From contig NZ_BMCG01000002.1 in assembly GCF_014635065.1 (NCBI RefSeq), positions 310,001 through 374,000 of the forward strand: 64,000 bases of DNA. Reading direction: 5' to 3'. The notes under the pieces were generated by a model. That model did not search any database, was not told where the DNA came from, and saw only the letters and a program-made list of their open reading frames with translations. Below are positions 1,570 through 42,533 of the stretch, piece after piece. The translations under genes and the position numbers were made by a program. The stretch comes from Oxalicibacterium flavum. GTDB taxonomy: Bacteria; Pseudomonadota; Gammaproteobacteria; Burkholderiales; Burkholderiaceae_D. The first letter of the stretch is position 1. Each line of letters starts with the position of its first letter.

Positions 1570-4029
1570 TCAGAACTTGAGATTGGCCGACAGCACGATC
1601 ACGCGTGCGTCGCCAAGGAAGGAGTTGTTGACCCAGTAGCGCTTGTCGGTCAGGTTGTTGACGTTCAGGCGCAGCGTCAGCGGATAACCGGCAGCCGCCA
1701 TGACGTAGCGCGCGCCGACATCGAACACCGTGTAGCTGGGCAGGCGGTCGGTATTCATCGTATCGGCCCATGCCGCGCCGACACGGTTGAAACCGCCGCT
1801 CAAGGTCAGACCCGGCACGCCCGGCACCTGATACTCGCCATAGAGCTTGAAGAATTGCTTGGCCGTTCCGGTAGGTCGCTTGCCTTCCAGCGCGGGATTC
1901 TGTTTTTGCTCCTTGACCTTGGCGTCGAGCAGCGTCAGGCCGCCGACCAGCGTCCAGTCGCGGCTGACCTTGCCGGTGGCGGTCAGCTCGATCCCGCGAT
2001 GCACCTGACGGCCATCCTGCACATACGTGGGTTGGGTCGGTACGGTGGCATCGTAGTATTGCAATCCCTTGTCGATCTCGAACAGTGCGCCAGCCAGCTG
2101 CATGCCGCCGACCGACGCCTTGGCGCCTACTTCCACCTGTTTGCTGACCAGCGGCCCCATCACTTGCCCCGCATTCGTCACCGGTGCGCCGTTATACAGA
2201 TCGGCCGCCACGCCACCCTGCTCCAGCGATTCCATGTAGGTGGCATAGGTGGTCACGTATGGCACCGGCTTGTAGAGCAGCGAGATGGTTGGCGTGGTCT
2301 TGCTTTCCTTGTAGGAAGAGCTCCAGCTGTCCGACGGATTCGAGCGGCTGCTGTTGTCGATCGTTGAACGGTTCAAACCGATCAGCATCGACCATTGCTC
2401 GTTGAAGGTAATGTCGTCGCCGATGATCCAGTTGTTCTGCCGGCTGATGGAACTGTTCCAGTTCGGCAGTTGACCATGCGAACCCCAGGCCGGTTCGTCG
2501 ATATAACTGGGTGCATCGAGCGACAATCCGGTGCGCAGTGGTGCCGTGGACGAACCATCGATGTGGTCGTAGCGCGTCACGCGCGTGGCAAGATGCCCGG
2601 CCGTCAGCTTGTGGCTGATCGCGCCGGTATTGAAGCTGAAGTCGGCAAAGGCATTCCATGCCTCGCCCTGCATGTCCTGCGGAGCGGCAATGACATTGCT
2701 CTGGTTGTAGCTGCCATCGGGCTGGATGGTATTGGTGGAGAACGAATAGGCGCGCGTATCGCGTCGCTTCAGCCAGGAAGCGCGCAGCGTCACGTTGTCG
2801 TTGGCTTCCCACTTGATGTTGGTGCCGAGACGCTTGCTTTCGACGTCGAAGAAGGTCCACTTCTGCGACCACAGCTTGTCCGGATCGAGCCGGTCCGCAG
2901 ACGGCCTGACGGCGCCGGTGACCAGCGCCCAGTACGCTTGCCGCTGCGAATCGTAATCGCGATACGAACCGTCAACCTGCACCAGCAGCTTGTCGGTCAC
3001 CTTCCAGTCGAAGGCGCCGGACAGGAAGTTCTTCTTGATGTTGAAATCGTTGATGGTGGTTTCGCCATCCTGCACGACTGCATTGATGCGGTAACCGAAG
3101 CGTCCCTCGGCATCGATCGGGCCGCCGAAGTCGCCGTGGATGTAACCGTTACTGCCGCCCGTGTAACCTGTGGTGATCGAGTTGTAACGCTCGGCGGTCG
3201 GCCGCTTGGACACATAGTTGATGAGCCCGCCCACGTTGCCGGTACCGTACAGGAAGCCGGACAGACCGGTCAGGATCTCGATGCGTTCGACATCTTCGGT
3301 ACTCGTGCCATGACCGTACATCGCGCCGGGCAACCCGTTGCGTGCCGGCGTGGTGCTCAAAAAGCCGCGCATATAAACGTACGGCGTATCGTTCTGCGAT
3401 TGCGGCCAGGTCAGTTGCGTGGTCGGGTTGACGCGATACAACTGGTCGGCGGTCGTGGCCTGCAGGTTCTCGATCAGCTCGGTCGGAATGACGTTGACCG
3501 AATATGGCGTGTCCTGCAGGCTGCGGCCCTGCCATGGGCCGACACCGCTGACCTTGTTGGTGCGATACCCGGCCTCGGCCGTACCATCCGTCTCCACCAC
3601 CGCACCGCTCACCTGCACTGCCGGCAATGTCGCTTCTTCCGGCAATGCCGGCGCCAGCGTATAACCGCCGTTGGGTTGCGCGACCGGCTGCAGGCCGGTG
3701 CCGCGGAACAGGCTGCGCAGTGCTTCGCCGGCCGTATAACTGCCGCTCACGCCCGGACTCTGGCGGCCGGCCACGTCGGCCGCGCCGTAGGAAATCATCA
3801 CGCCGCTTTCCTGCGCGAAACGAACCAGCGCGCTTTCCAGCGAACCGGCGGGGATTGTGTATTGACGGCGCTGTTCGGCCGATGGTTGTGCCTGCGCCGA
3901 CAGAGGCTGGCCGGCAATGCCGACGGCAGCAATCGCGAGCAAGGCGTGGCTGACGGCAACCGCCATGATGCGGCGGCGGCAGATCATGGAAAACGCGCGC
4001 GGAATGGCGCGGGATTGAACATGGTGCAT
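1570..4029 (-). CDS. TonB-dependent siderophore receptor with STN signalling domain (cassette B)
   Basis: Outer-membrane receptor of 819 residues, FpvA/FoxA class. The N-terminus has a signal peptide (about 1-47, ending near LSAQAQ). An STN domain follows at about 55-105 (YTIPAGSLESALVRFAQESG), which contacts the FecR periplasmic domain. The TonB box lies near ATLPAVQVSG (about 135). The plug has VERIEILTGLSGFLYGTGN and GLINYVSKRP, and the C-terminal beta-barrel ends in the typical aromatic residue (SANLKF). ATG 4029 is preceded by AAGGAAA. It follows the sigma/FecR pair at 5738-4180 and should be its target. The ligand cannot be named from sequence; a ferric siderophore is likely. Confidence 0.93.
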   Translation of the reverse strand: MHHVQSRAIPRAFSMICRRRIMAVAVSHALLAIAAVGIAGQPLSAQAQPSAEQRRQYTIPAGSLESALVRFAQESGVMISYGAADVAGRQSPGVSGSYTAGEALRSLFRGTGLQPVAQPNGGYTLAPALPEEATLPAVQVSGAVVETDGTAEAGYRTNKVSGVGPWQGRSLQDTPYSVNVIPTELIENLQATTADQLYRVNPTTQLTWPQSQNDTPYVYMRGFLSTTPARNGLPGAMYGHGTSTEDVERIEILTGLSGFLYGTGNVGGLINYVSKRPTAERYNSITTGYTGGSNGYIHGDFGGPIDAEGRFGYRINAVVQDGETTINDFNIKKNFLSGAFDWKVTDKLLVQVDGSYRDYDSQRQAYWALVTGAVRPSADRLDPDKLWSQKWTFFDVESKRLGTNIKWEANDNVTLRASWLKRRDTRAYSFSTNTIQPDGSYNQSNVIAAPQDMQGEAWNAFADFSFNTGAISHKLTAGHLATRVTRYDHIDGSSTAPLRTGLSLDAPSYIDEPAWGSHGQLPNWNSSISRQNNWIIGDDITFNEQWSMLIGLNRSTIDNSSRSNPSDSWSSSYKESKTTPTISLLYKPVPYVTTYATYMESLEQGGVAADLYNGAPVTNAGQVMGPLVSKQVEVGAKASVGGMQLAGALFEIDKGLQYYDATVPTQPTYVQDGRQVHRGIELTATGKVSRDWTLVGGLTLLDAKVKEQKQNPALEGKRPTGTAKQFFKLYGEYQVPGVPGLTLSGGFNRVGAAWADTMNTDRLPSYTVFDVGARYVMAAAGYPLTLRLNVNNLTDKRYWVNNSFLGDARVIVLSANLKF

Positions 4030-4179
4030 CGGATGTTTCCTTTTCCGGGAGAGGGAGAAAATGGGCTTTCATCTCCTATGCCACTTGAAAAGAAAAAACA
4101 CCTCAGGTTTTTTTGAGCGATATTTGCAGCCGCTGGCTCGGCATCCGGAATCGATGGCCGATGCGTTGGAATTGCCTGA

Positions 4180-5202
4180 TTACACCGAATCCGACCTTGG
4201 TCTCAGCCTGACCCAGTAACGCGTCCAGGACTGCATCTCGATCGGCAAGGTCCGCAGCAGCATGTCGAGCACGCGCTCGGTATCGTCGAGCGGATAGATG
4301 CCAGACACCTTCAACTCGGCAATCGCCGGATCGCAGCTCAAATGGCCACGGCGATAGCGCTCCAGTTCCGCCAGGAAATCCGCGAGCGGCATCTCGCGCG
4401 CGACGAACATGCCGGTCGCCAGCGGTGAGGCCACATCCGGCAGCACCTCGCTCTCTGCGATGTGGCTGTGCGTGAAATGCGTACGCTCGCCGGCCTGCAG
4501 CACGCGAACGCCGGCCGCCGCATTGCGCGGGCTGACCTCGACCGCGCCTTCATAGACGCCGACGCTGGTATCCGCATTCCAGTGACGCACTTCGAAACGC
4601 GTGCCGAGCGCACGCAGGCGGCCATCCGGCGTATCGACCAGAAAAGGCCGCGCACCATGGCTTGCGGCCTGCGGATCGGCGGCGGTGGTGATGAGTATGT
4701 CGCCTTCGAGCAGCGTGACCAGCCGCTGCTGCGCGTCGAAGCGCAGATCGACCGCAGTAGCGCTGCCCATCACGAGTTGCGTGCCGTCAGCCAGCGTCAA
4801 CGTGCGCCGCTCGCCGGGCGCGGTGCGGTAGTCGGCCAGCCATGCTTGCGCCGGTGTGCTCCTGCCGGCCATCCAGACACCGCCGCCCGCAACCGCCAGC
4901 ACGGCCAGCAGCTTGAGCGACTGGCGCCGCTGCCGTGCTGCACTGGCGGAACGCGTCAGCGTGCCATGCACCAGCAGCGGATCGAAAGCCGCCAGTTGCG
5001 CGCGGAACGATTCGATATGTTGCCAGGCCTGTTCATGCGCCTCGCTTTCAGCACGCCAGCGCCGGCAGGCGGCGTGCGTGTCCGCCGTGGCGTCCGGCGC
5101 CTGCAGCGCGACCAGCCATTGCACGGCCTGCAGGCTGACGGATTCCGCGACGCTGGGTGCGTCTGGCAAGGAAGATGGGGAAACCGGGGCGATACTTGGC
5201 AT
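4180..5202 (-). CDS. FecR-family regulator (cassette B)
   Basis: FecR-type transmembrane sigma regulator, 340 residues. The cytoplasmic domain lies at about 15-75, with several tryptophans including AWQHIESF. One membrane helix spans about 97-115. The periplasmic FecR domain contains TAPGERRTLTLADG and RALGTRFEV. A C-terminal secretin/TonB-N-like portion (LSCDPAIAELKVSGIYPLDD) resembles an STN fold. ATG 5202 lies 5 nt behind the sigma gene. A longer open frame upstream overlaps fecI out of frame and was not used. The regulator sits between its sigma factor and an STN receptor, the standard cell-surface signalling order. Confidence 0.92.
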   Translation of the reverse strand: MPSIAPVSPSSLPDAPSVAESVSLQAVQWLVALQAPDATADTHAACRRWRAESEAHEQAWQHIESFRAQLAAFDPLLVHGTLTRSASAARQRRQSLKLLAVLAVAGGGVWMAGRSTPAQAWLADYRTAPGERRTLTLADGTQLVMGSATAVDLRFDAQQRLVTLLEGDILITTAADPQAASHGARPFLVDTPDGRLRALGTRFEVRHWNADTSVGVYEGAVEVSPRNAAAGVRVLQAGERTHFTHSHIAESEVLPDVASPLATGMFVAREMPLADFLAELERYRRGHLSCDPAIAELKVSGIYPLDDTERVLDMLLRTLPIEMQSWTRYWVRLRPRSDSV

Positions 5203-5207
5203 GCTGG

Positions 5208-5738
5208 TCAGTCGGCCGATACCATCGCCGCGCCATGAAAGAAGCAGCGATGCATGGCCTTGACGATGTAGCGCTGCACGGTCGCCAGCGACAGTCCGAG
5301 TTCGGTCGCGATCTGCGGCTGCGTCATGCCGTCGAGCTGCGACAGCAGAAAAGCCTTGCGCACCGGCAGCGGCAGACCGTCCAGGCGGCGGTCGATCTCG
5401 ACCAGCGCCTCGAGCAGGATGGCGCGCGTTTCCGGGTCCGGTGCAAGCTGCTCGGGCATGGCGGCCAGCGTGTCGAGATAGGCTGCCTCGATCTTGCGAC
5501 GGCGATGGAAATTGGAAACCACACCCTGCGCAACCGTGGTCAGGTAGGCGCGCGGTTCCTGCAATGCCGGCGTTTCCTCGCGTGCCAGCAGGCGCACGAA
5601 GGTATCGTGCGCGAGGTCGGCGGCGTCGAAGGAATTGCCGAGCTTCTTGCGCAGCCAGCCGAGCAGCCAGCCATGATGGTTGGCGTAGAGATCGGCGATC
5701 GGCACTGCGGTCTTGTCGGGAGAGGAAACGAGGGTCAC
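5208..5738 (-). CDS. FecI-type ECF sigma factor (cassette B)
   Basis: ECF sigma factor of 176 residues. Region 2 has HHGWLLGWLRKKLGN and DLAHDTFVRLLA. Region 4 has LDGMTQPQIATELGLS followed by a basic recognition helix. It starts at ATG 5738. A Fur-box-like palindrome lies about 70 bp upstream. It is the first gene of the order sigma, fecR, receptor (5738 to 1570). It is paralogous to the sigma genes at 1461, 9257, 13485 and 41931. Confidence 0.92.
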   Translation of the reverse strand: MTLVSSPDKTAVPIADLYANHHGWLLGWLRKKLGNSFDAADLAHDTFVRLLAREETPALQEPRAYLTTVAQGVVSNFHRRRKIEAAYLDTLAAMPEQLAPDPETRAILLEALVEIDRRLDGLPLPVRKAFLLSQLDGMTQPQIATELGLSLATVQRYIVKAMHRCFFHGAAMVSAD

Positions 5739-5953: not shown

Positions 5954-8284
5954 TCAGAACGAGGCGCGCAGTCCCAGCGATATCTTGCGCGGCTCGCCGT
6001 AGATCAGGCCGTCGTAAAAACCGTACTGACGATAATAGGTCTTGTCGAACAGGTTGCTGACATTGAGGGTCGCGACCAGGTTGTCGTTGATCTGGTAACG
6101 CGCCATGGCGTTGAACAGCGCATAGGCACCGGTCTTGAGCGGCGTGTCATCGAATGCGCCGCCGCCCAGCGGCCGTCCCGGCATGGCGCTCCAGACCGAA
6201 TGGCTTTGCCACGACACGCCGCCGCCTACCGTCAACTTGTTCCATTCGTCAGGCAAGCGATACGAGGTTTGCATGCGCAAAATCTGACGCGGATCGCGTT
6301 CCACCGTATTGACGTTATCGACGCTCAGATAGGTGTAGCCAACCATGGCCGTCCAGTTCTTTGTCAGGTTGCCACTGGCCTCGAACTCGAAGCCCTTGGT
6401 TTCCACGCCGCTGCCGCCTGCAATGTATGCCTGACTCGCCGTGCCCGGCACCAGATTGGCGCCGTCCGCCACCGCCACGTTGTTCTGTTTGGCCTGGAAC
6501 ACGGCCGCCGAAACGTTCAGGGCACCATCGAGCAGTTCGCCCTTGATACCGGCCTCGTAGCTCGATCCGGTGACTGGCTTCAGGTATTCACCGTCGCGGT
6601 CGCGCTGCGATTGCGGGTTGAAGATATCGGTATAGCTCGCATACAGCGAATAGTTGGCGTTGAGGTCATAAATGATGCCGGCGTACGGCGTGACGACATC
6701 GTGCCGCATCACGTTGTTGCGCGACACCGCATTCTGGAGGGTGAAGGTATCGATGTAGGTCTTGTAGTGCGTCAGACGCGCGCCGACGATGGTCTTGAGC
6801 GCATCGGTGAGGTTGAAGCGAGCCGCCGTGTAGAGACCGATGCTGTCGGTGGTGGTCTCGCTGCGTGCATTGGTGCGATAGGTGTTGAAGCCGGCATAAT
6901 TGCCGTCCCAGTTGCGCCAATCCGCAATCGGCAGTTGCAGACGATACTGACAGCTGCCGCCTGCCGATACGCCGCCGATGTTGCAGTTGCCGAGATTGGA
7001 CGAGAAGGTATAGGAGGTGTCCTCCAGATGGTAGCCATTGATGCCGACCATGGCCTCATGCTCGCGGCCGAACAACTGGAACGGACCATTGGCCGCCAGC
7101 GACATGCTGCTGCGCTCGCTTTCCGATTCCGAATGGATGCCGTTGAGCACGGCACCGGTGCCATCCTGATTGTAAAAGCCTCCCCATAGTCCGCCCGCGG
7201 TATTGGCCTTGGCGACACCGAAATTGTTGATCGCCTCGCCCTTGCTGTGCGCCAGCGACAGATTGGCCTTCCAGCCGCCGCCCAGCTTTTGTTCGAGGTC
7301 GGCGAACAGCGTCGTGGTCTCGCGATCCGTGTAGCTCCAGTTGGCAGCGGGATTGTAGCTGCGCGAGAAATTCGTGCGCGTGCCGTCGGCATACCAGATC
7401 GGCACGTTGGCGCCCCACGAGGTGCCGTCGTTGCGCGTCTTCTCGTGCTGGATGCCGACGCTGACACGCGTATCCGCCGTCAGGTCCGCCTCGACGATAC
7501 CGAGCACGCCGAGATTGCTGACATGCTCGCGATCGCGGAAGGTGCCGCCATCGTCGCTGCTGATGACGAAACGCGAACGCACGCGGCTGTCGTCCGACAA
7601 CGGCAGGTTGGCATCCACATCGACGTGCTTACTGTTCCAGCTGCCGACGCGCACGCCGCCGCTGATGCCGCGTTCCGTGGTCGGGCGCTTGCGCGACAGA
7701 TTGATGGTGGCCGAAGGATCGCCCTTGCCGCCAAGCAGGCCGTTGGCCCCGCGCACCACCTCGACGTGATCGTAGAGGTCGAGGTTGATGCTGCTGCCGA
7801 TACCGCTGAAGTCCGCGCCGCCGCTGATTTCCAGGCCATCGACACGATAGGTCGTGATGTCGAAGCCGCGCGCGCGATAGGTTGAGCGTGCACCAACGTC
7901 GGTCTGCGTCGAGCTAATGCCGGACGCGATGTTGAGCAATTGATCCATATTCTGGATGTTCTGATCGTCGAGCTGCTGGCGCGTCACCACGCTGACCGCT
8001 TGCGGGGTGTCGCGCGGCGCCAGCGTGAGGCCGGCAGACGAACTGGCTGCGCGTGCGCCATAGGAGCCGGAACCTTCGGTGGCAGTATCGCGCACGGCGG
8101 TGGCGATCACGGCCGGCAGCACGGAATCCTCGGCAGCGCCGGGTTCGGCCGCATTAGCGGCACGTGCGGCCTGCGTGGGCAGGATGGAAGCGACCGTCAG
8201 GCTCAGCAGTGCGCTGCGCACGGCACGGTGCATGGTGTGGGGACGCGATGGAATCGCGGGAACAGAGGCGTGGCGGGATGCCAT
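5954..8284 (-). CDS. TonB-dependent siderophore receptor lacking an STN domain (cassette C)
   Basis: Outer-membrane receptor of 776 residues, FhuE/PupB-like. The signal peptide covers about residues 1-42. The mature protein enters the TonB box at once (DSVLPAVIATAVRD), then the plug (LAPRDTPQAVSVVTRQQLDD, VEVVRGANGLLGGKGDPSA) and the barrel, ending ISLGLRASF. Unlike the receptors at 4029, 11883, 25642 and 43832 it has no STN signalling domain between signal peptide and TonB box. The frame runs up to 8341, but ATG 8284 has a good site (GAAAGGAAAG) and precedes a normal signal sequence. The upstream FecR is also truncated. Confidence 0.92.
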   Translation of the reverse strand: MASRHASVPAIPSRPHTMHRAVRSALLSLTVASILPTQAARAANAAEPGAAEDSVLPAVIATAVRDTATEGSGSYGARAASSSAGLTLAPRDTPQAVSVVTRQQLDDQNIQNMDQLLNIASGISSTQTDVGARSTYRARGFDITTYRVDGLEISGGADFSGIGSSINLDLYDHVEVVRGANGLLGGKGDPSATINLSRKRPTTERGISGGVRVGSWNSKHVDVDANLPLSDDSRVRSRFVISSDDGGTFRDREHVSNLGVLGIVEADLTADTRVSVGIQHEKTRNDGTSWGANVPIWYADGTRTNFSRSYNPAANWSYTDRETTTLFADLEQKLGGGWKANLSLAHSKGEAINNFGVAKANTAGGLWGGFYNQDGTGAVLNGIHSESESERSSMSLAANGPFQLFGREHEAMVGINGYHLEDTSYTFSSNLGNCNIGGVSAGGSCQYRLQLPIADWRNWDGNYAGFNTYRTNARSETTTDSIGLYTAARFNLTDALKTIVGARLTHYKTYIDTFTLQNAVSRNNVMRHDVVTPYAGIIYDLNANYSLYASYTDIFNPQSQRDRDGEYLKPVTGSSYEAGIKGELLDGALNVSAAVFQAKQNNVAVADGANLVPGTASQAYIAGGSGVETKGFEFEASGNLTKNWTAMVGYTYLSVDNVNTVERDPRQILRMQTSYRLPDEWNKLTVGGGVSWQSHSVWSAMPGRPLGGGAFDDTPLKTGAYALFNAMARYQINDNLVATLNVSNLFDKTYYRQYGFYDGLIYGEPRKISLGLRASF

Positions 8285-8316
8285 GAAGCTTTCCTTTCGT
8301 AGAGAAATGCAGGCAC

Positions 8317-8336
8317 GGAAAAAACGGCCTTTCATC
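8317..8336 (-). promoter_or_regulatory. 20-bp element shared with the cassette B receptor leader
   Basis: GATGAAAGGCCGTTTTTTCC lies 33 bases upstream of the receptor ATG (8284). A version with 17 of 20 identical bases lies at 4054-4073, 25 bases before the cassette B receptor. It could be part of an ECF sigma promoter or a leader element. The function is unknown. Confidence 0.35.
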
Positions 8337-8381
8337 TGCATTACCGTACGAAGCGGAAAAAGGTATCAGCGCAATCGCGAA

Positions 8382-8726
8382 TCAGCCGCTGCCCGACTCA
8401 CCACGCCACATCGCTTCCGCCAGCGGCATCATCACCATCAGCATGCCGAGCATGGACATCCCACGCCGCTGTCCCCGCCCGGCCACCGCGCGCAACGTGG
8501 CATGTCCGACTCCCGGCGGGGCCTTTCCGAACAGCCGCATCAGTTCTTCCGCACGCTGCCAGGCCGCACCATGCATGTCGCTCGTGTGCAGCCAGCGATC
8601 GAATGCATGGCGTTCCCGCTCACCTGCCTCATCGGACTGAAAACGCATCAGCCAATCCACCGCTTCTGCAAGGATGGCCGCGTCAATAGAAGCATGGGCG
8701 GAGGAAGGGGCAGATTGTGGCTGCAT
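8382..8726 (-). CDS. Truncated FecR-like regulator: cytoplasmic domain plus membrane helix only
   Basis: Only 114 residues long, against about 320-360 for the full-length paralogues in this window. The N-terminal FecR/DUF4880 domain is intact (AVDWLMRFQSDEAGERERHA and AAWQRAEELMRLF, with three tryptophans as in the paralogues). A hydrophobic Met/Leu-rich segment follows at about 88-106, and the protein stops a few residues later. The periplasmic FecR domain is absent. Only 97 bp separate its stop from the receptor ATG, so a simple frameshift is not hiding the rest. Its ATG abuts the sigma stop (TGAATG), implying translational coupling. In E. coli FecR, N-terminal fragments alone activate FecI constitutively, so this may be an always-on activator (inference). 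Confidence 0.85.
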   Translation of the reverse strand: MQPQSAPSSAHASIDAAILAEAVDWLMRFQSDEAGERERHAFDRWLHTSDMHGAAWQRAEELMRLFGKAPPGVGHATLRAVAGRGQRRGMSMLGMLMVMMPLAEAMWRGESGSG

Positions 8727-9257
8727 TCAGACCACCATCATGCAGGCCATGAATGCCGCGCGCATGTGACGCTTGACCGTGATCAGCGAGGTACCGAGCC
8801 GCTCCGCGATCTCGCCGTACTTGAGCCCGTCGAGCTGGGCCAGCAGGAAGATCTGACGCGTCTTCTCGGGCAGGCCGCGCAGCATGGCCTCGATGCGGCA
8901 CAGCGCATCCAGCACCAATACGCGCGTCTCTTCGCACGGTGCGTGATACTCGGGCAGATGCGCAATGGCTTCCAGATACGCGCGCTCGACTTCCTGGCGC
9001 CGCCAGTGGTCAATCATCAGACCTTTCGCGACATGCGTGAGCAAGGCACGCGGCTCACCGCCGAGCGATTCCCCGCGCCGCCGCTTCAGAATGCGCACGA
9101 AGGTATCCTGCGCCAGGTCGGCCGCGTCGCAGGCATTGCCGAGCTTGCGCACCAGCCATGCCTGCAGCCAGCCGTGATGATCACGGTACAGGGTCTGCAT
9201 GTCGTCATGCATTTCATGTTGGGGTTCGTGCTGGAAGATGGCTTGTGCTGCGGACAT
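8727..9257 (-). CDS. FecI-type ECF sigma factor (cassette C)
   Basis: ECF sigma factor of 176 residues. Region 2 contains HHGWLQAWLVRKLGN and DLAQDTFVRILKRR. Region 4 contains LDGLKYGEIAERLGTS and a basic helix (VKRHMRAAF). ATG 9257 is chosen. A TTG at 9272 would add five residues and lies closer to the Fur-box-like site. The stop is directly followed by the ATG of the short FecR-like gene. Confidence 0.92.
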   Translation of the reverse strand: MSAAQAIFQHEPQHEMHDDMQTLYRDHHGWLQAWLVRKLGNACDAADLAQDTFVRILKRRRGESLGGEPRALLTHVAKGLMIDHWRRQEVERAYLEAIAHLPEYHAPCEETRVLVLDALCRIEAMLRGLPEKTRQIFLLAQLDGLKYGEIAERLGTSLITVKRHMRAAFMACMMVV

Positions 9258-9273
9258 GGCGGCAAGAATCAAA

Positions 9274-9288
9274 CAATAACGATTCTCA
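9274..9288. promoter_or_regulatory. Fur-box-like site (cassette C)
   Basis: Read on the minus strand it is TGAGAAT-C-GTTATTG, a good 7-1-7 Fur match embedded in AT-rich DNA. It lies 17 bases before the sigma ATG at 9257. Confidence 0.65.
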
Positions 9289-9375
9289 TTTTATGAACCG
9301 CTGCGCCCCGTCACAACGGACGCATTCCCATAAACAACACTCATAAGGGATATCCCCAGTCACGCGCTAAGGGAC

Positions 9376-9420: not shown

Positions 9421-9450
9421 AAAAACGGACGCATTCTTGCGTCCGTTTTT
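9421..9450 (-). terminator. Rho-independent terminator of the cassette D receptor
   Basis: The 13-bp arms AAAAACGGACGCA and TGCGTCCGTTTTT enclose a 4-nt loop. On the minus strand the stem is followed by a run of eight T. It lies 21 bases beyond the receptor stop. Confidence 0.9.
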
Positions 9451-9471: not shown

Positions 9472-11883
9472 TCAGAAGTCCATGCTGGCCGACAGCAGCC
9501 ATGTCCGGGGCGGCGCTACCGAGATGAAGTTGCGGCCGCCTATCGTCCAGTGCGCATCGTCGAGCAGATTGTCGATGCCTGCGCGCAGCGTCACGAGACG
9601 CTCGCCAAGCCGCATCTGATAGCGCGCACCGATATCGACACGGTTCCACGATGGCAGGCGCTGCGTGTTGGCAAGGTCCGCATAGGCAGCGCCGGTATGG
9701 ATCACGCGTGCGCTCAGTGTCATGCCGGGCACCTGAGCCAGATCGACCTCCGCACCAAGGTTCACGTTCAGTTCCGGCACGCCGATCGGCTTGGCGCCAT
9801 CGAAAGTGCCGTTCTGCGTGCGCTGCATCTTGCCGTCTATCCATGCCACGCCGCCCAGAAGACGCACGCCCTTCGCCACCTCGCCAAAGGTTTCGAGCTC
9901 GATGCCGCGGTGCTGCTGCTCGCCTGCTGCGCGGAACACATTGTCGCTGTCGAGGAAGGCGGTGGTCTTGATGATGTCGAAGTACGCGGCGGTGATGCCG
10001 TAGTGTCCCCTGTCCCACTTCAGACCCACTTCGCGTTGCTTGGAGACGTAAGGCGGCAGGTTCTCGCCGATGTTGCTGCCTGCGGTAGCGGTCTGCCCTT
10101 TCGCCAGCGACTCCGCATAGTTGCCGTAGATCGAGAGTCCGTTGTCGATCTTGTACAAGGCGGCGACGGTCGGCGTGGTCTTCGAATGATCGGAGGCCCC
10201 CTGCTTGATGGTCTGGTTGCGCAGCGCCAGCGTCAGCAACAGACGTTCGTCGAACATCGACAGCGTGTCGGCAATCGCCACGCTGTTCAGATACAGCGCC
10301 GGGCTCGTGACGCCGGGAATGTCGGGGGTGCCATCGGCGAACGGATTCGGCACATCGGTATAGCCATACAGATCGGCCACCACCGGCGTTGCCAGCAATC
10401 GCGTCTGCTGTTTCATGTCCTGCAGCTGATGACGCTGACGCAGGATGGCCACCGACAGCTGGTGCTTGACGCTGCCGGTATCGAACTGCCCGCGCACGCC
10501 GGCGGTACCGACCTCGTTCTCCTGCGTCCACAACAGGCTGGTTGCGCGATCGTAGGTCACACGGCCTGCGCCATCGATGGTGGTGTTGTCGATGTAAAGC
10601 CGCTCGGGCGTATTCTCGTGCAGTTTGCCGTAGCGCACATAGGCGGTCCAGTCGTCGGCGACATCCCATTCCGCGCTGACGAGACCGAAAGTCTGGCGCA
10701 CGTCCAGCGTCTCCCATTTCGGCTTGATGTGCACCGAAGGATCGGGCACGGCCGGCAGCGCCGCGCCCGGCGCCAGTATCCAGTGATTGAACAGCGGAGA
10801 AGACTTGCGGCGCGAATATCCGGCGTCTAGCGCCAGACGCACCCCGTCGCCACGGTAGTCGAGCGCAATCTGCGGCGCGACGAGATGACGTTCGGCATCG
10901 TCATACAGTTCGCCATCCTCTGCAGTCATGTTGAGACGGAAGCCGAAACGGTTGTCGGTGCCGAAGCGCTGGCCGATATCGATGTGCGTGCCGAACAGCG
11001 ACTTGTCGTTGGCATAGACGGTCGCACTGCGTACCGGCGCATCGGTGGCGCGCTTGGGTACCAGATTGAAGGTGCCGCCTACCGTGCTGCCGTAACCGGA
11101 GGCGCCGACTACGCCACCAGCCGGTCCCTTCAGCACTTCCAGGCGCTCGTAGTGCTGAATCGGCACGTTGCTGTAGGCGATCAGGCCTTCGACGCCATCG
11201 AACAGATAACCGTCGCTGTTGGTCATGAAGCCGCGTATCGCACTTTGGTCGAGCGGCGATGTCGCCGACAGGCTGGTACGAATGGAAGGATCGTTGGCGA
11301 CGACATCGTTGACGTTTCGCGCGCTCTGATTGCGGATCAGCTCGTTGGTATAGGACTTGACGCTGAACGGCGTCTTGAACATGTCGCTGTTGCCCAGCAT
11401 GCCGATCCGACTGCCGCGCGCAACCTGCCCGCCGGCATACACCTGCGGCAGGTCGTTGCGCCCGGCCTGCGCCGCTACGCGGACTTCCGGCAGGGTTGTC
11501 GCGCCGGCCGGCAGGCGGCGCAGTACGTAGCGGCCATCGCCGGTACGACTGGCTTCCAAGCCGGTACCCGACAGCAGACGCGCGAAACCGCCCTGCACCG
11601 TGTAGCTGCCCCGCAGGCCGTCGGAATGCGCGGCTCCCAGTTGCGATGCATCAAACGACAGCGTGACGCCTGCCGCACCCGCATAGCGGCCGAGGACCTG
11701 CGCCAGCGGACCGCCTGCCACGTCGAAACTGCGTACCTCCGCTTCGCCTGCAGGCGCGATACCGGCCGTTACGGCTTCCTGCGCATTGGCAGTCATACCC
11801 GCGCCCAGGGCAAGCGCGAACACGGCGGAATGCACGGCAAGCAGCAAGGGCCGCCGAGGAAAATTTGAAAACGAGGATGTCAT
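9472..11883 (-). CDS. TonB-dependent siderophore receptor with STN domain (cassette D)
   Basis: Outer-membrane receptor of 803 residues. The signal peptide ends near TANAQ (about residue 34). An STN domain follows at about 50-105 (FDVAGGPLAQVLGRYAGAAG), then a TonB box near TTLPEVRVAA. The plug carries YAGGQVARGSRIGMLGNSD, a signature shared with the receptor at 25642, and LEVLKGPAGGVVGASGYGS. The barrel ends LLSASMDF. Start ATG 11883 has AGAGAGTT upstream, and the longer open frame to 11976 lacks a signal-like start. It sits 100 bp after fecR of the same cassette and is its predicted target. Confidence 0.92.
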   Translation of the reverse strand: MTSSFSNFPRRPLLLAVHSAVFALALGAGMTANAQEAVTAGIAPAGEAEVRSFDVAGGPLAQVLGRYAGAAGVTLSFDASQLGAAHSDGLRGSYTVQGGFARLLSGTGLEASRTGDGRYVLRRLPAGATTLPEVRVAAQAGRNDLPQVYAGGQVARGSRIGMLGNSDMFKTPFSVKSYTNELIRNQSARNVNDVVANDPSIRTSLSATSPLDQSAIRGFMTNSDGYLFDGVEGLIAYSNVPIQHYERLEVLKGPAGGVVGASGYGSTVGGTFNLVPKRATDAPVRSATVYANDKSLFGTHIDIGQRFGTDNRFGFRLNMTAEDGELYDDAERHLVAPQIALDYRGDGVRLALDAGYSRRKSSPLFNHWILAPGAALPAVPDPSVHIKPKWETLDVRQTFGLVSAEWDVADDWTAYVRYGKLHENTPERLYIDNTTIDGAGRVTYDRATSLLWTQENEVGTAGVRGQFDTGSVKHQLSVAILRQRHQLQDMKQQTRLLATPVVADLYGYTDVPNPFADGTPDIPGVTSPALYLNSVAIADTLSMFDERLLLTLALRNQTIKQGASDHSKTTPTVAALYKIDNGLSIYGNYAESLAKGQTATAGSNIGENLPPYVSKQREVGLKWDRGHYGITAAYFDIIKTTAFLDSDNVFRAAGEQQHRGIELETFGEVAKGVRLLGGVAWIDGKMQRTQNGTFDGAKPIGVPELNVNLGAEVDLAQVPGMTLSARVIHTGAAYADLANTQRLPSWNRVDIGARYQMRLGERLVTLRAGIDNLLDDAHWTIGGRNFISVAPPRTWLLSASMDF

Positions 11884-11983
11884 GAGAACTCTCTGGTTGA
11901 ATGAAAAAAGCGTTTCAACCAGGAGGACGCGCAACACATGCTCAAAATGCAAAGAGGAGAAAAATTTCTGCGGCAATGAATCG

Positions 11984-12985
11984 TCACGCTGCCTTGATGG
12001 TGGTCCAGAATCGCGTGAAACGCTCGATCCGCAGCGGGAAACTCTCGGTCAGCGACAGCAGGGTCTGCTCGACGTCATCGAGCGGAAACGCGCCCGATAC
12101 GCGGATTGCCGCCACCGCATCGTCACATGCCAGATGTCCGGAACGGTAGCGCGCCAGCTCCGCGACGAATTGTCGCAGCGGCATATCGACCACCACCAGC
12201 CGTCCGCGCTGCCAGGCAGCGACCGATGCATCGGCCGTGACCGGGGAGCCCATGCGTGTCGATGAAAATGCCAGCTGCTGGCCTGCTTCCAGCCGCAATG
12301 CATCGCTGCCCTGCATGACACGCACCTCGACTGCCTTTTCCAATACCGTGACGCGGGTTTCATCGTCTTCCACGCGCACATTGAAACGCGTGCCGAGCGC
12401 GGTGATGCGACCATGCCGTGTCTCCACGATGAACGGCCGCGCCATGGCCTGCTGATCCGGATGGGTGGTCACGAGTATCTCGCCTTGCTGCAACCGCACC
12501 AGGCGTTGCGTCTCGGAAAACGCCACATCGCCCCTGGTGTGCGTATTGAGCGACAGCATCGACAGGTCCGCCAGCGTGACGTCGCGCCGCTCGCCGGTCG
12601 CGGTCGCCAGATCGCTGCCCCATCCGGCCAGCGGCTGCATCCGGTAAGCCACCGCACCGCCGGCGCCCACGGTCACCAGAATCGCAAGGCCGCGCAGCAC
12701 GCCGCGCCGTGCGCGTGCCTGCTGCATGGAGCGCGTGAGCGTATTGCCTGCCACCTTGCCCGGCACGCGGGCAAACTGCTGGCAGACCTGCTGCACCTTC
12801 TCCCATGCCAGGCCGTGCTCGGGATCGGCCGCCAGCCACTGTGCCCACTGGCATTGCAGCGCATCGCTGCCCTGCCCGGCCTGCAGGCGCGCATACCACT
12901 GCGCGGCCTCGTTAACGGCGCGAATGTGTTCGGGGGAATGCTGGGAGCCGCCCTTCGCCAGCAAGGTGGCGCGATCGGCGCTCAT
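11984..12985 (-). CDS. FecR-family regulator (cassette D)
   Basis: FecR-type transmembrane regulator, 333 residues. The cytoplasmic domain at about 20-75 has AAQWYARLQAGQG and GLAWEKVQQV. One membrane helix lies at about 98-115. The periplasmic part carries TATGERRDVTLADLSMLSLN and TALGTRFNVRVEDD, and the C-terminal portion (ACDDAVAAIRVSGAFPLDDV) is STN-like. Its ATG overlaps the sigma stop (ATGA), indicating coupled translation. It should hold the sigma factor inactive until the STN receptor at 11883-9472 signals. Confidence 0.92.
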   Translation of the reverse strand: MSADRATLLAKGGSQHSPEHIRAVNEAAQWYARLQAGQGSDALQCQWAQWLAADPEHGLAWEKVQQVCQQFARVPGKVAGNTLTRSMQQARARRGVLRGLAILVTVGAGGAVAYRMQPLAGWGSDLATATGERRDVTLADLSMLSLNTHTRGDVAFSETQRLVRLQQGEILVTTHPDQQAMARPFIVETRHGRITALGTRFNVRVEDDETRVTVLEKAVEVRVMQGSDALRLEAGQQLAFSSTRMGSPVTADASVAAWQRGRLVVVDMPLRQFVAELARYRSGHLACDDAVAAIRVSGAFPLDDVEQTLLSLTESFPLRIERFTRFWTTIKAA

Positions 12986-13485
12986 GGCAGCAGCAGACAG
13001 CAGTGCGCCATCGCGCGCGCGACGTAGGTATTGACCGAGCGCAATGAAATGTCGAGCCGCCGCGCGATCTCGGCATAGGACAGGTCCTCGAACTGGCTCA
13101 GGATGAACACCTGCTTGACCTTGGGACCGAGGCCATCGAGCATGCCGTCGATCTCGATAAGCGCTTCCTTCATGATCGCCTGTTCTTCCAGCGAGGGCAT
13201 GTCCTGCACCGGCAATGCCGCCAGCACCTCGAGATAGCTGCGCTCCACGCGCTGCCGGCGGAAATGGTCGAGCACCAGCCGGTTCGCCACCGTCGCCAGA
13301 TAGGCCCGCGGTTCGCGAATCTGCTGGCTGACCTGCGCCAGCATGACCTTGATGAAGGTGTCCTGCGCCAGATCGGCGGCATCGCCCGCATTGCCGAGCT
13401 TGCCGCGCAACCAGCCTTGCAGCCAGCCGTGATGCGCGCGATACAGGGCGTGGACTTCCTGATGGGAGGAATCGAGCGAGGACAT
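12982..13485 (-). CDS. FecI-type ECF sigma factor (cassette D)
   Basis: ECF sigma factor of 167 residues from ATG 13485. Region 2 contains HHGWLQGWLRGKLGN and DLAQDTFIKVML. Region 4 contains FEDLSYAEIARRLDIS. The frame extends to 13515, but that stretch runs into the Fur-box-like site (reading MRIILIFKI), so the internal ATG before SSLDSSHQ is preferred. It is followed by fecR through an ATGA overlap. Confidence 0.92.
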   Translation of the reverse strand: MSSLDSSHQEVHALYRAHHGWLQGWLRGKLGNAGDAADLAQDTFIKVMLAQVSQQIREPRAYLATVANRLVLDHFRRQRVERSYLEVLAALPVQDMPSLEEQAIMKEALIEIDGMLDGLGPKVKQVFILSQFEDLSYAEIARRLDISLRSVNTYVARAMAHCCLLLP

Positions 13486-13499
13486 GCGAATTTTAAAAA

Positions 13500-13514
13500 T
13501 GAGAATTATTCGCA
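13500..13514. promoter_or_regulatory. Fur-box-like site (cassette D)
   Basis: TGAGAAT-T-ATTCGCA fits the 7-1-7 Fur pattern in 13 or more positions of the palindrome. It lies 15 bases upstream of the sigma ATG at 13485. Confidence 0.68.
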
Positions 13515-13619
13515 ATGCTAAACGTGAATCAGCGGTACGGCAATCGTGCCATGTCGTGCTGTTGCATGCGTGTCATATGCATCGGATTGCATCTCGCCCG
13601 CCGATGAGACACGCACGCG

Positions 13620-24305: not shown

Positions 24306-24422
24306 TGCAACGCTACACTCGGCATCACTTGCACATCGACGCATCCGCTGGCTGGCGCACTGCGCCGCCTACCGTATTTTGCGCCGGTCGTGCGTCTGCA
24401 TAACAAGGAACCAGTCAACGCC

Positions 24423-25508
24423 ATGCGCTTATCCACACCCGCCACGGACAGCACCACCCTGCGCCCTCAGGTGCTCGACTGGTTCGCCCGTCGCCAGCGC
24501 CACGACTGGAGCAAACAGGACGAACAAGCATTCAATGCCTGGCTCGACGAAGACCCCAACCATGCCGCGAGTTACCGCGAATGGCTGTCCAACTGGCAAG
24601 CCATCGATACTCTACCTGCTGATGCCGTGGCGCGTTTGCGTGCCGGCCTCGCACGAGACAAGGCGCAGGGACAGGCAAAGTCACAAACGCAAGGCAAGAC
24701 AACGACACAGGCTGCGCCGCTACACCCCACACGCCGACGATTCTTCCGTCCCATCCTGGCACTGGCAACCACCGCCGCGCTGGTCGTCGGTACCACGTGG
24801 CTGGTCCGGCCGCAGTGGTACGGCAGTCCCGTCTATACACAAATCTTCGAGACCGCACGCGGTCAACAGGGCCAGGTACAACTGCCGGACGGCAGCGTTC
24901 TGCAACTGGACACGTCCACCCGTCTCGAGATTGCCTATTACGAAGACCGCCGCCAAATACGACTCACTGACGGACAAGCTGCCTTTGACGTACAGGCCGA
25001 TACCGCCCGGCCTTTCCACGTACTGGCCGGTCCCATACGCGCCACCGCACTTGGCACACGCTTCGTAGTCCGCCACACTCCAGAGATTGCCGGCGATGCC
25101 GGCGTCCACGTCACGGTGGAAAAAGGCAAGGTACGCGTGGCCAGCCTGACCGACCGCAACGACGCTGACGAAGAAGCCACCGCGCAATACCTGACCGCCG
25201 GCCAGCAGATCGGTGCCGATGCCCAAGGCATTCTCGGCCATATCGCCGCGGTCCCGTCCGATGGCATTGCACCCTGGCGTGACGGAAGGCTCAGCTTCAT
25301 CAATGCCCGCCTCGATCGTGTACTCGACGAATTCCGCCGCTATGGCGATGTCCCCTTGCGAATCCGCGATCCGCAGGTCGCCGCGCTGCGCCTGTCCGGC
25401 ACCTTCGACCCGCAAGATCCGGCCACCCTGCAACGCATCCTGCCCGCCGCCCTACCGGTTCGCCTTCAGCAATCGGCACAAGGCATCGAAATCCGCTCCC
25501 GGGAATAA
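24423..25508 (+). CDS. FecR-family regulator (cassette E)
   Basis: FecR-type regulator, 361 residues from ATG 24423; a GTG at 24390 could add 11. The cytoplasmic domain at about 10-65 has VLDWFARRQRHDWS and HAASYREWLSNW. A basic, Gln/Thr-rich linker leads to a membrane helix at about 104-122. The periplasmic core has TARGQQGQVQLPDGSVLQLD and TALGTRFVVRHTP, and the C-terminus is STN-like (PQVAALRLSGTFDPQD). There is a 117-bp gap after the sigma gene, larger than in the other cassettes. Confidence 0.92.
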   Translation: MRLSTPATDSTTLRPQVLDWFARRQRHDWSKQDEQAFNAWLDEDPNHAASYREWLSNWQAIDTLPADAVARLRAGLARDKAQGQAKSQTQGKTTTQAAPLHPTRRRFFRPILALATTAALVVGTTWLVRPQWYGSPVYTQIFETARGQQGQVQLPDGSVLQLDTSTRLEIAYYEDRRQIRLTDGQAAFDVQADTARPFHVLAGPIRATALGTRFVVRHTPEIAGDAGVHVTVEKGKVRVASLTDRNDADEEATAQYLTAGQQIGADAQGILGHIAAVPSDGIAPWRDGRLSFINARLDRVLDEFRRYGDVPLRIRDPQVAALRLSGTFDPQDPATLQRILPAALPVRLQQSAQGIEIRSRE

Positions 25509-25606
25509 ACGCAAGACATACCCATATCACTTGCAGGGAAATGCGTCGGAAAAATTGTTGGCGATGCTTACCGTATTTCTCAAACCTCGCCCGTCTTCCC
25601 AATTAG

Positions 25607-25621
25607 GAATAATTTTTATTC
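25607..25621. promoter_or_regulatory. Fur-box-like palindrome before the cassette E receptor
   Basis: GAATAA-TTT-TTATTC is a perfect AT-rich inverted repeat 20 bases before the receptor ATG. It is a weaker Fur match than those before the sigma genes. Confidence 0.45.
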
Positions 25622-25641
25622 AATCTTGGGAGATCAAAAAC

Positions 25642-28029
25642 ATGAAAGACGCCATCCTCCGTCCCGCACCGCTTGCCCTGCTGATTGCACTGGCATTCGG
25701 CAGCGGCGCACTGCACGCGCAGCCAGCGGCCGCACCCGCCAACTCCATACAAATCAGCATCAATGCACAGCCACTGGCGGAAGCCCTCAACGACTGGGCA
25801 CGGCAGACGCGCATTCAGTTGGTGGTCGAACAGTCGCTGGTGGCGGGCAAAACCGCGCCGGCCGTTAACGGCAACCTGACACCACGCCAGGCACTCGACA
25901 GACTGCTTGCAGGAAGCGGGCTTGCTGCCATTGACGATACAGGAGGCGCAATCGTGATCAGGGCGATTCCGTCAGCCGGACAGGAAGCGACGCTTCCTGC
26001 CGTGAAGGTCATGGCGGAGACAATGCTCCCGGCTGCTTACGCAGGAGGACAAGTTGCTCGTGGCGGACGGGTCGGCATGCTGGGTAACCGCGATATGCTC
26101 GACACGCCTTTCAGCACCACCCAGTACACCGCCCAACTGGCGGAAGATCAGCAGGCGCAGACCATTGGCGACGTACTGGTCAACGATCCCTCGGTGCGTA
26201 ATACCTATGCGCGCAGCGCGGGCCGCGAGGAATTCAACATCCGTGGCTTTACGCTGTTCAACTATGACGTCTCCTATAACGGCCTCTACGGCCTGTCGCC
26301 GCGCAATGCCGCCTCGCTGATCGGCGTGGAGCGCGTGGAAGTGCTGCGCGGCCCCAGTGCACTTCTCAACGGCATGGCGCCCGCCGGCTCTGTGGGCGGC
26401 GGCATCAATCTGGTGCCCAAGCGCGCAGGGGCCGATCCGCTCACTCGCTTGACACTGTCATACCTCGATGACGGTCAGTTCGGCGCGCATGCCGATGTAT
26501 CACGCCGTTTTGGCAACGAACAACAGTGGGGTGTGCGCTTCAATGCCGCCAAGCGCTCGGGTGACACACCTGTCAATGGATCGAGCGAACGGGTAGATGC
26601 CCTTGCTCTCGGCCTGGACTATCAGGGCGAACGCGTGCGCCTGGAGGCGGATCTCAACTACCAGGACCGCGTGACACACGGCCGCAGCAGCCTGCTGTTC
26701 CCTCCAGCCTCCGGCACGCCCATCGCCGCGGCGCCGGACAACAAGCTCAACTTTCAGCCCAAGTGGAGCTACTGGGAAGCAAAGGAGCGGGCCGCCGTGG
26801 TGCGCGGCGAAGTTGACATCGCGCCCGGACTGGTCGCCTACGGCGCGCTGGGCGCCATGCAGTACGACTTCGACAGCCTGCAGACCACCTCGTTGCTGCA
26901 GGATGCGCAGGGCAATCTCCTCGTCCGTCCGTACCGGCTCAAGGAGTATGTCGATACCCGCACCATCGAGGCCGGCCTGCGCGGCAGGTTCGAGACCGGC
27001 AAGTTGCACCATGAGGTCGTGGTCAGCGCCACCAGCTATGCACAGGACAACGGTTTGCTGAGGCAAAACGACGCCATCTCCCCGTCGAGCATCTACACGC
27101 CGGCAGACATCGCATTCCCGAACATCACGCTCGGCGGTTCGATTCCGAGGACCTCTGAAACCCGGATGCGCAGCCTGGCCTTCGCGGACACGATTTCCTC
27201 GGCGGACCGCCGCATCCAGTTGACGCTGGGCGCTCGCCACCAGGAAGTACGCACGCGCACGCTGGACCCTGACACGGGCGCGCAATCGGCCCGCTACGAC
27301 AAATCCGCGGTGACACCGATGGCTTCCCTGCTGTTCAAGGCAACGGAAGGCGTTTCTCTGTACGGCAACTACATCGAAGGTCTGTCCCAGGGTCCCACTG
27401 CGCCCAGCGGAACATCCAACATGGGCCAGATGTTCCCGCCGTCCAAATCCAAGCAGGTCGAAATCGGCGCCAAGTACGACACAGGTCGTTTTGCCACCAC
27501 GGTCAGCCTGTTCCAGATCGAACGTCCCAGCAGCGTGCTGGATGCCGCCACTGCACCGCCCACGTTCCGCATGGATGGCCAACAGCGCAACCGCGGCCTG
27601 GAAATCATCAGCCAGGGCGAAGTGACCAGCGGTGTGCGGCTGTTGACAGGCATGGCTTATACCCAGGGCAAGCTGGTCAAGACCGAGGGTGGTGCCAACG
27701 ATGGACGCACCGCCCCTGCAACACCACGGCTGCAAATCAACCTGGGCGGCGAATGGGACACGTCCTTCCTGCCGGGCCTGACCCTGACCGCACGCGGGCT
27801 GCGCACCAGCTCGCAGTACGTCGATATGGCAAACACCCAGCAACTGCCATCGTGGACGCGCTGGGACATCGGTGCACGCTACCGCTTCAACGCGGGCGGC
27901 AGGCCAGTGACGCTGCGCGCCTCCATCGAGAACGTGCTGGACAGGGACTTCTGGCAATCCGCCGCTCGCGAAGGCTTGACGATGGGCGCGCCGCGCACGC
28001 TACTGGTTTCTGTCTCCACCGATTTCTGA
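25642..28029 (+). CDS. TonB-dependent siderophore receptor with STN domain (cassette E)
   Basis: Outer-membrane receptor of 795 residues. The signal peptide ends near GALHAQ. The STN domain spans about 35-105 (ISINAQPLAEALNDWARQTR, NGNLTPRQALDRLLAGSGLA). The TonB box is near ATLPAVKVMAE. The plug carries YAGGQVARGGRVGMLGNRD, as in the cassette D receptor, and VEVLRGPSALLNGMAPAG. The barrel ends LLVSVSTDF. ATG 25642 follows GGGAG. A longer frame from 25213 overlaps fecR and is not real. It follows its sigma and FecR genes in the same direction. Confidence 0.93.
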   Translation: MKDAILRPAPLALLIALAFGSGALHAQPAAAPANSIQISINAQPLAEALNDWARQTRIQLVVEQSLVAGKTAPAVNGNLTPRQALDRLLAGSGLAAIDDTGGAIVIRAIPSAGQEATLPAVKVMAETMLPAAYAGGQVARGGRVGMLGNRDMLDTPFSTTQYTAQLAEDQQAQTIGDVLVNDPSVRNTYARSAGREEFNIRGFTLFNYDVSYNGLYGLSPRNAASLIGVERVEVLRGPSALLNGMAPAGSVGGGINLVPKRAGADPLTRLTLSYLDDGQFGAHADVSRRFGNEQQWGVRFNAAKRSGDTPVNGSSERVDALALGLDYQGERVRLEADLNYQDRVTHGRSSLLFPPASGTPIAAAPDNKLNFQPKWSYWEAKERAAVVRGEVDIAPGLVAYGALGAMQYDFDSLQTTSLLQDAQGNLLVRPYRLKEYVDTRTIEAGLRGRFETGKLHHEVVVSATSYAQDNGLLRQNDAISPSSIYTPADIAFPNITLGGSIPRTSETRMRSLAFADTISSADRRIQLTLGARHQEVRTRTLDPDTGAQSARYDKSAVTPMASLLFKATEGVSLYGNYIEGLSQGPTAPSGTSNMGQMFPPSKSKQVEIGAKYDTGRFATTVSLFQIERPSSVLDAATAPPTFRMDGQQRNRGLEIISQGEVTSGVRLLTGMAYTQGKLVKTEGGANDGRTAPATPRLQINLGGEWDTSFLPGLTLTARGLRTSSQYVDMANTQQLPSWTRWDIGARYRFNAGGRPVTLRASIENVLDRDFWQSAAREGLTMGAPRTLLVSVSTDF

Positions 28030-30401: not shown

Positions 30402-30417
30402 ACATGCATTCGAGAAG

Positions 30418-30480
30418 CGGCCGTGCCGATGCAAGGCATCGCGGCCGTGTACTGGTAAACGCAGCCTCAATCGGCTGCGT
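30418..30480. promoter_or_regulatory. Two strong hairpins in the receptor leader
   Basis: Hairpin one (30418-30447) pairs CGGCCG/CGGCCG and CGATGC/GCATCG around a 3-nt loop. Hairpin two (30459-30480) pairs ACGCAGCC with GGCTGCGT around a 6-nt loop. Both lie in the gap between the His-rich protein gene and the receptor ATG. They could partly terminate or shape a shared transcript. Confidence 0.5.
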
Positions 30481-42488: not shown

Positions 42489-42533
42489 CGCTGCCTCGCA
42501 GGCATCTCGATGCCTTGTCGTTCACCGATACAC

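Follow-up and report, generated by a model that had tools for sequence, protein, structure and literature searches.

A shortened FecR between a FecI-type sigma factor and an STN-less receptor

The window analysed here is a 64,000-nucleotide stretch of the Oxalicibacterium flavum genome (contig NZ_BMCG01000002.1, positions 310,001 to 374,000). On its minus strand, from 9257 to 5954, lies a unit of three genes that encode, in this order, a FecI-type sigma factor, a shortened FecR-like protein that we call the stub, and a TonB-dependent receptor that lacks the STN signalling domain. The open reading frames (ORFs) were re-derived and are placed as follows:

8727 to 9257, minus strand: gene for a FecI-type extracytoplasmic function (ECF) sigma factor with Pfam Sigma70_r2 and r4_2 domains; the frame is open from a TTG at 9272
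8382 to 8726, minus strand: FecR stub gene, 114 amino acids (aa), with a DUF4880 sigma-binding domain and one hydrophobic helix, the periplasmic domain being absent
5954 to 8284, minus strand: gene for an STN-less TonB-dependent receptor of the FauA/FhuE type, with Pfam plug and barrel domains and no STN

The sigma factor scores 193.7 bits against NCBIfam NF009180 (cut-off 184). The ATG of the stub directly follows the sigma stop codon (8727/8726), the two genes being separate ORFs, and 97 bp separate the stub from the receptor. A first-pass annotation, made from the letters of the window, had described the same two truncated parts, a FecR-like protein without its periplasmic domain and a receptor without STN, and both the ORFs and Pfam agree with it. 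It had added that the other cassettes of the window in which FecR and receptor are both present are complete; by Pfam, all four of these (1570-5738, 9472-13515, 24390-28029 and 42510-46339) have a FecR domain and STN.

DUF4880 is the only Pfam family above its cut-off in the stub (PF16220, E 2e-12, 47.2 bits against a cut-off of 25, residues 21-62). No FecR periplasmic domain was found at the stub locus, either as PF04773 in Pfam or with our FecR C-domain profile; the profiles for this domain, STN, sigma and DUF4880 were built in-house from few sequences, and Pfam was applied to 21 proteins. Residues 89-107 form a hydrophobic stretch (Kyte-Doolittle 19-mer mean 1.31, compared with 0.86 in E. 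coli FecR and 1.54-1.77 in four full FecRs) that aligns to the membrane helix of full FecRs. The stub is a DUF4880 domain followed by a single predicted membrane helix, and it ends about five to seven residues beyond that helix. A structure model, which together with its Foldseek comparison serves as support only, puts the helix at residues 90-109 with low confidence (predicted local distance difference test scores of 50-59 for residues 81-114 and 87-97 for residues 11-60). The best Foldseek match of the model is PupR (E 0.12, probability 1.00); by sequence, the match to PupR (5cam) has an E of 0.21 for the stub alone and 1.9e-10 for a profile with 10 related N-domains.

The stub unit is unique in its genome and shared with a second species

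The 3.2-Mb genome of O. flavum (G000) contains 29 DUF4880 matches, only one of which, the stub, sits in a short frame. All 28 other loci have, by our custom profiles, a FecR periplasmic domain and STN inside their 1.5-kb flanks, which extends the annotation's observation from the window to the genome. STN lies in an ORF running downstream in 26 of them and in a separate small protein upstream of sigma in two. The stub unit is the sole one of the 29 with neither a FecR periplasmic domain nor an STN partner.

In O. faecigallinarum (G006) we found the same three genes, identically arranged, behind a full cassette that is orthologous to the one standing immediately upstream of the unit in the O. 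flavum window; the genes past the far side of the receptor differ between the species. The sigma factors are 75% identical, the STN-less receptors 74% and the stubs, of which that of O. faecigallinarum has 113 aa, 41%. Because a second species carries the same shortened unit, chance or sequencing error is a very unlikely explanation. The first-pass annotation had raised a unique recent deletion as a possibility, and this is ruled out by the orthologous sigma, stub and STN-less receptor genes of O. faecigallinarum. Its judgement that a hidden frameshift is unlikely can be made firmer: just 97 bp lie downstream of the stub, the locus has no match to the FecR C-domain profile, and the O. faecigallinarum stub ends at the same alignment column, so we rule a hidden frameshift out. 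The equivalents of E. coli FecR L13, W19, W39 and W50, which are residues hit in induction-negative mutants (PMC9249621), are L19, W25, W45 and W56, and they are retained in both stubs.

In a tree of 113 sigma factors, built after collapsing loci with identical sigma stretches and removing matches of fewer than 140 residues or 80 bits, the two stub-unit sigmas group as sisters (100/95) within sigmas that belong to full cassettes. Five related cassettes, chosen as strong stub-alignment matches (G171, G210, G379, G584 and one on G000:C3), all have a FecR periplasmic domain and STN in a downstream-running ORF. Because the sigmas nest among full cassettes and the related cassettes are complete, a full FecR was probably shortened once, prior to the split of the two species.

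The annotation had gone further and suggested a minimal or derived class of iron sigma systems; a broad class of this exact form was not found in the genomes sampled. The stub is present in two of the 13 genus genomes, which together have 95 DUF4880 matches, and the third short frame of the genus, an 81-aa DUF4880 frame in O. faecigallinarum, looks like a relic. In a family sample of 245 genomes the two Oxalicibacterium stubs are the only short frames among the matches listed, the others exceeding 300 aa. In an order sample of 399 genomes, one of 99 matches is short, again the O. flavum stub, and the next shortest has 241 aa; none of the 99 comes from O. faecigallinarum. Scoring was limited to 18 candidates per genome in the family sample and 11 in the order sample, so that short proteins could be missed. 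Among 48 matches from a phylum sample of 60 genomes there was one more short protein, of another kind (G679, described below). Short peptide patterns derived from the stub gave 68 pattern matches in genome contigs, none of which was confirmed, and seven of 72,556 plasmid records match the stub, none over 80% of its length.

Some other features of the O. flavum genome may be recorded here. Its 29 DUF4880 matches compare with at most 16 in each of the 12 other genus genomes. The two separate STN proteins lie ahead of sigma and FecR at L234 6494-7177 (G000:C1:123500-131500) and L235 6422-7189 (G000:C1:98000-106000). They have 227 and 255 aa and score 31.2 and 28.3 bits against Pfam STN (cut-off 28.4); their layout is the reverse of that of the stub cassette, and they resemble VreA. 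At G000:C4:208539-209032, the fecI match falls into three pieces beside an intact FecR (C4:209110), and this sigma gene is probably broken.

Predicted control signals

Four pattern matches in and ahead of the unit bear on its expression:

9288 to 9316, minus strand: sigma-70-like promoter of the sigma gene, TTGTGA-17-TAAAAT, a consensus match only
9275 to 9293, minus strand: Fur-box-like 19-mer overlapping the -10 of the sigma promoter, 14 of 19 consensus matches
8330 to 8369, minus strand: FecI-type promoter motif in the stub-receptor gap, CTGATACC at 8369-8362 and CGTACGG at 8350-8344
9421 to 9450, minus strand: intrinsic-terminator-like hairpin closing the upstream cassette, with a 13-pair stem, a loop of 4 and a T-run, a pattern match only

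The Fur-box-like site on the sigma promoter is consistent with the Fur control that the annotation had predicted. Scored against a Fur consensus, it has a like site, also 14/19, ahead of sigma in O. faecigallinarum. Six window positions reach at least 13/19 matches, and four of them coincide with the start of a FecI-type gene or lie shortly ahead of it (1473, 5807, 9275 and 13495). The Fur site of E. coli fecI likewise lies in the -10 region (PMC9249621). In the 97-bp gap between stub and receptor no Fur match of 12/19 or better was found; E. coli fecA does have a Fur site before it. Sigma-70-like promoter patterns number two in the region against 1.4 in shuffles, and terminator-like patterns three against 3.2, so that the latter are not enriched; the hairpin at 9450-9421 stands between the stub unit and the upstream receptor.

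The FecI-type motif was learned from 28 other FecR-to-receptor gaps, some of which lack it. In its 32-base form, the match before the receptor outscores 99.85% of 4000 130-mers drawn at random from the window, and that in the O. faecigallinarum gap outscores 99.47%. The 28-base form gives 99.7% in O. flavum and 92.7% in O. faecigallinarum.

The receptor probably lacked STN before it joined the unit

The receptor scores 292.5 bits against TIGR01783 (cut-off 223.5); its best NCBIfam match is FauA, at 551.5 bits and under that family's cut-off of 900, and its closest relative in the PDB is the ferric alcaligin receptor 3efm (E 1.3e-123). On account of the FauA-type scores and of 3efm as the best solved relative, its ligand is likely a hydroxamate siderophore. 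Of the 80 receptor relatives that were taken from named genomes, 41 have both STN and FecR at their locus, 36 have neither, two have STN without a separate FecR match, and one, the O. faecigallinarum sister of the stub unit, has FecR without STN. FecR was counted here if found anywhere in the fetched locus, and five loci have less than 4 kb upstream: L101 (64 bp), L165, L168, L171 and L109. The two with STN and no separate FecR match, L149 and L168, have a long ORF that starts with a sigma domain.

The stub-unit receptor falls in an 11-member clade without STN, made up of three Oxalicibacterium receptors, one each from Azoarcus and Pseudomonas entomophila, and six from Halomonas/Vreelandella. 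In the nine members besides the two stub loci, no FecI or FecR was found in the fetched locus DNA, which for L101 extends only 64 bp upstream. Seven of these nine have a Fur-like site (13-15/19) within about 40 bp of the receptor frame start; the best sites in Azoarcus and P. entomophila reach 10. In G012 a Fur-box-like site (15/19) lies directly before the receptor with no sigma gene between, on a contig that stops 64 bp upstream of the aligned start; the sigma-stub pair may have been inserted ahead of the receptor in the stub-unit species or lost in the G012 lineage. Because the clade is STN-less and FecI and FecR were not found in this DNA of its nine other members, the receptor was probably already without STN before sigma and stub joined it, and FecR alone was probably shortened in the stub unit. 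The description of the unit as having "both sensor halves missing" therefore holds in that both are absent; a double loss, of the FecR periplasmic part and of the receptor's STN, is improbable for a receptor from such a clade. An older loss of STN may have taken place in the ancestor of the clade. The receptor tree was built quickly and has long branches; STN needs six changes on it, at least three of which starred branches make unavoidable. The wider receptor group of 17 rows includes one STN receptor (L111).

The window has a second STN-less receptor, at 28107-30470, beside which neither a DUF4880 gene nor a sigma gene belonging to it was seen.

Selection on the stub

Between the two species, the ratio of nonsynonymous (dN) to synonymous (dS) substitution rates of the stub is 0.45 (bootstrap 0.22-0.70, with 0 of 298 replicates at or above 1). 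In the sigma-binding core, dN is 0.35 and dS 2.34; with dS above 1 (2.3 for the core), these rates are rough estimates. The core of the stub is evolving under purifying selection. The helix is kept between the species as hydrophobicity. In a neutral simulation at the observed 45% nucleotide divergence, the frame stayed open in 3.6% of replicates.

A proposed ligand-blind relay and its alternatives

With moderate confidence, we read the unit as a former surface-signalling cassette turned into a relay that is gated by Fur and blind to ligand. With STN missing from the receptor and the periplasmic domain from the stub, a siderophore signal would have no way in. In low iron, Fur would leave the sigma promoter, and sigma would be transcribed along with the adjoining stub. 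The DUF4880 domain of the stub would bind FecI, and the stub, at the membrane or once RseP had cut its helix, would serve as a constitutive pro-sigma partner; FecI would then drive the receptor from the receptor's own promoter, with ligand not needed. We infer the pro-sigma direction, control by Fur and FecI in vivo, RseP processing and the co-transcription of sigma and stub. Since the stub ends just beyond its helix, it resembles a natural version of a pre-cut FecR.

The annotation had pointed out that N-terminal fragments of E. coli FecR activate FecI constitutively, and published work says the same of fragments whose extent the stub matches: FecR1-59, 61, 65, 68 and 116 give ligand-independent FecI activity, and nonsense mutants at codons 82 and 202 leave FecI active without ligand (PMC9249621). 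FecR1-85, which RseP normally generates by cleaving the helix, activates without RseP (PMC8144685); FoxR1-93 and FiuR1-91 are reported to act as pro-sigma factors, and IutY, when cut short from its C terminus, does not need the protease Prc for its activity (PMC9249621). The stub is nearly equal in extent to these E. coli FecR fragments and nonsense products, to FoxR1-93 and to FiuR1-91, which activate sigma without ligand. Unlike these laboratory-made or selected forms, it is natural and occurs in two species, where such an activity is predicted.

Several points weigh against a relay of this kind. The unit occurs in two species only. The helix and tail of the stub (26 codons; dN 0.89, dS 0.44) have no sequence constraint, and the stub as a whole has evolved at roughly three times the rate of the N-domain in the adjacent pair of full FecRs (dN 0.575 against 0.179), this N-domain being 74% identical between the species and the stub 41%; fast change and an unconstrained end make partial decay possible. 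The 28-base FecI-type motif is weak in O. faecigallinarum, where 7.3% of random 130-mers score as well. RseP cleavage is reported for FecR121 and FecR181 and not for FecR101, which has no periplasmic region (PMC8144685). FpvR1-67 binds and inhibits FpvI and PvdS (PMC9249621), so that the direction in which the stub acts, as activator or brake, cannot be read from its sequence. Finally, OrbS and AsbI are described as functioning although no FecR partner adjoins them, so that the unit might do without its stub.

The behaviour of FpvR1-67 favours a plain anti-sigma brake, in which the stub would hold FecI at the membrane with no release by the receptor, and RseP or turnover would clear it, giving the Fur response a threshold or a delay. 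Such a brake could also account for the hydrophobicity kept in the helix of both species, which a pure pro-sigma peptide would not need, and the genome does encode RseP (368.6 bits against a cut-off of 147.55). However, the E. coli FecR fragments from 59 to 116, FoxR1-93 and FiuR1-91 all activate, and without a release signal the unit would be useless unless the stub were constantly degraded. We consider a brake unlikely, though it is the main rival of the relay.

Alternatively, the stub could be a decaying remnant beside a sigma factor that acts alone under Fur, as OrbS and AsbI do with no adjacent anti-sigma gene. Its rapid change and unconstrained tail fit this idea, and relics of DUF4880 proteins are known, namely the 81-aa frame of O. 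faecigallinarum and one beside a sigma fragment in Stutzerimonas kirkiae. Decay is nevertheless unlikely, since the frame is open with the same end point in two species at a divergence where few neutral replicates stay open, dN/dS is below 1 with the core most constrained, and the sigma-contact residues are retained; taken together, we regard this account of the unit as rather improbable. It is very improbable that the stub merely tunes a FecI controlled by another full FecR, since FecR and FecI normally form cognate pairs and the nearest other sigmas of the genome are just 53-56% identical to that of the stub unit, even though 28 other FecRs are present and a full cassette lies directly upstream in both species.

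Other short or reduced DUF4880 proteins

The additional short protein of the phylum sample, from G679, is of DUF4880 only, about 68 aa long in a 74-aa frame. In its family, 10 of 101 genomes have this protein, in frames of 70-95 aa (loci L236-L245), and all 10 have a sigma gene just upstream and, downstream, an ORF that is MbtH-like by a residue pattern. In Azoarcus, L249 2717-3031 (C302, a 105-aa frame) encodes the same helix-less, DUF4880-only type beside a sigma gene. At about 65-80 aa, these helix-less proteins (L236-L245 and L249) are close in length to FecR1-59, the minimal active fragment of E. coli FecR. A published cluster of Halomonas gemina contains sigma, DUF4880 protein, MbtH and nonribosomal peptide synthetase (NRPS) genes (PMC10291192), an analogy that suggests that the family of G679 may be Halomonadaceae.

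Further short frames were sought among 54 DUF4880 matches in nine genomes. A 113-aa protein of Stutzerimonas kirkiae C33 (L248 2674-3365), with DUF4880 and a hydrophobic helix, was set aside as a relic: the adjoining sigma is partial (77 aligned residues), and there is no receptor-profile match in 8 kb. It looks like the relic of an independent truncation. There are also five frames of 174-208 aa, of which L252 is cut by a contig end and L250 and L254 have FecR pieces in two frames; L251 and L253 have no such explanation. The 206-aa frame of L253 (1684-2301, minus strand, in Pseudomonas entomophila) combines a partial sigma domain with DUF4880 and ends in a hydrophobic stretch; it gives no match to the FecR C-domain and is possibly a fused sensor-less sigma/FecR stub. 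At L138, L149 and L168, long ORFs that open with a sigma domain and run about 418 residues onward from it adjoin STN receptors; these are likely fused sigma/anti-sigma proteins of the IutY kind.

One could envision that the membrane-held stub has opened a new route for input: as a FecR already cut at site 1 when it is made, it would answer directly to RseP or to the state of the membrane, and the unit would be a Fur-plus-RseP relay. FecR would then have been reduced to its sigma-binding module several times independently, here and in the helix-less DUF4880-only proteins of other lineages. We put this forward as a doubtful, speculative extension.

Relation to known systems

The stub unit resembles E. 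coli FecI-FecR-FecA in its sigma factor, its DUF4880 domain with membrane helix, its downstream receptor, the Fur site at the sigma -10 and the FecI-type promoter before the receptor. It differs from that system in having no FecR periplasmic domain, no STN and no point of ligand entry.

Like OrbS of Burkholderia cenocepacia and AsbI of Aeromonas salmonicida, the sigma factor belongs to the iron sigmas under Fur, in its case by prediction, and OrbS serves a receptor, OrbA, that is also without a signalling domain. Unlike either of them, neither of which has an adjacent anti-sigma gene, it is adjoined by a DUF4880 stub. It also lacks the C-terminal cysteine iron sensor of OrbS, with one cysteine in its last 20 residues. 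IutY of Pseudomonas putida becomes signal-independent upon C-terminal truncation, as we propose for the stub; however, IutY is sigma and anti-sigma in one polypeptide inside an otherwise normal signalling system, whereas the stub unit has separate ORFs.

ECF-sigma-DUF4880 modules named in the Stutzerimonas receptor study (PMC13037486) and in the Halomonas gemina siderophore cluster (PMC10291192) likewise place a DUF4880-named gene beside a sigma gene near siderophore genes. The similar loci found here, in G679 and its nine relatives and in Azoarcus L249, differ from the stub in encoding about 65-80 aa and no membrane helix, and the 10 have the MbtH-like ORF next to them. The Stutzerimonas module could be of the same kind as the stub unit, a comparison made by module name and not by protein length. 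Fur-controlled iron sigmas without an adjacent anti-sigma (OrbS, AsbI) and ECF-sigma-DUF4880 modules (PMC13037486) are already in print. Our literature search, which also drew on PMC10253897, PMC9023288 and PMC5411451 and had subscription ECF-classification papers outside its range, turned up no account of a protein that has DUF4880 alone, is held at the membrane and is encoded between FecI and an STN-less receptor, unless the module of PMC13037486 includes one.

The stub would be the natural counterpart, in two species, of a truncation that comes from E. coli genetics (Ochs et al., 1995, cited in PMC9249621). The unit offers a clean case for asking whether, after sensing has been removed, the FecR N-domain mainly activates its sigma or restrains it, and it bears on why some Fur-controlled iron sigmas retain a FecR remnant, unlike OrbS and AsbI. 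More broadly, it suggests that a sigma module which gives up its sensing part can become attached to a receptor that has no signalling domain.

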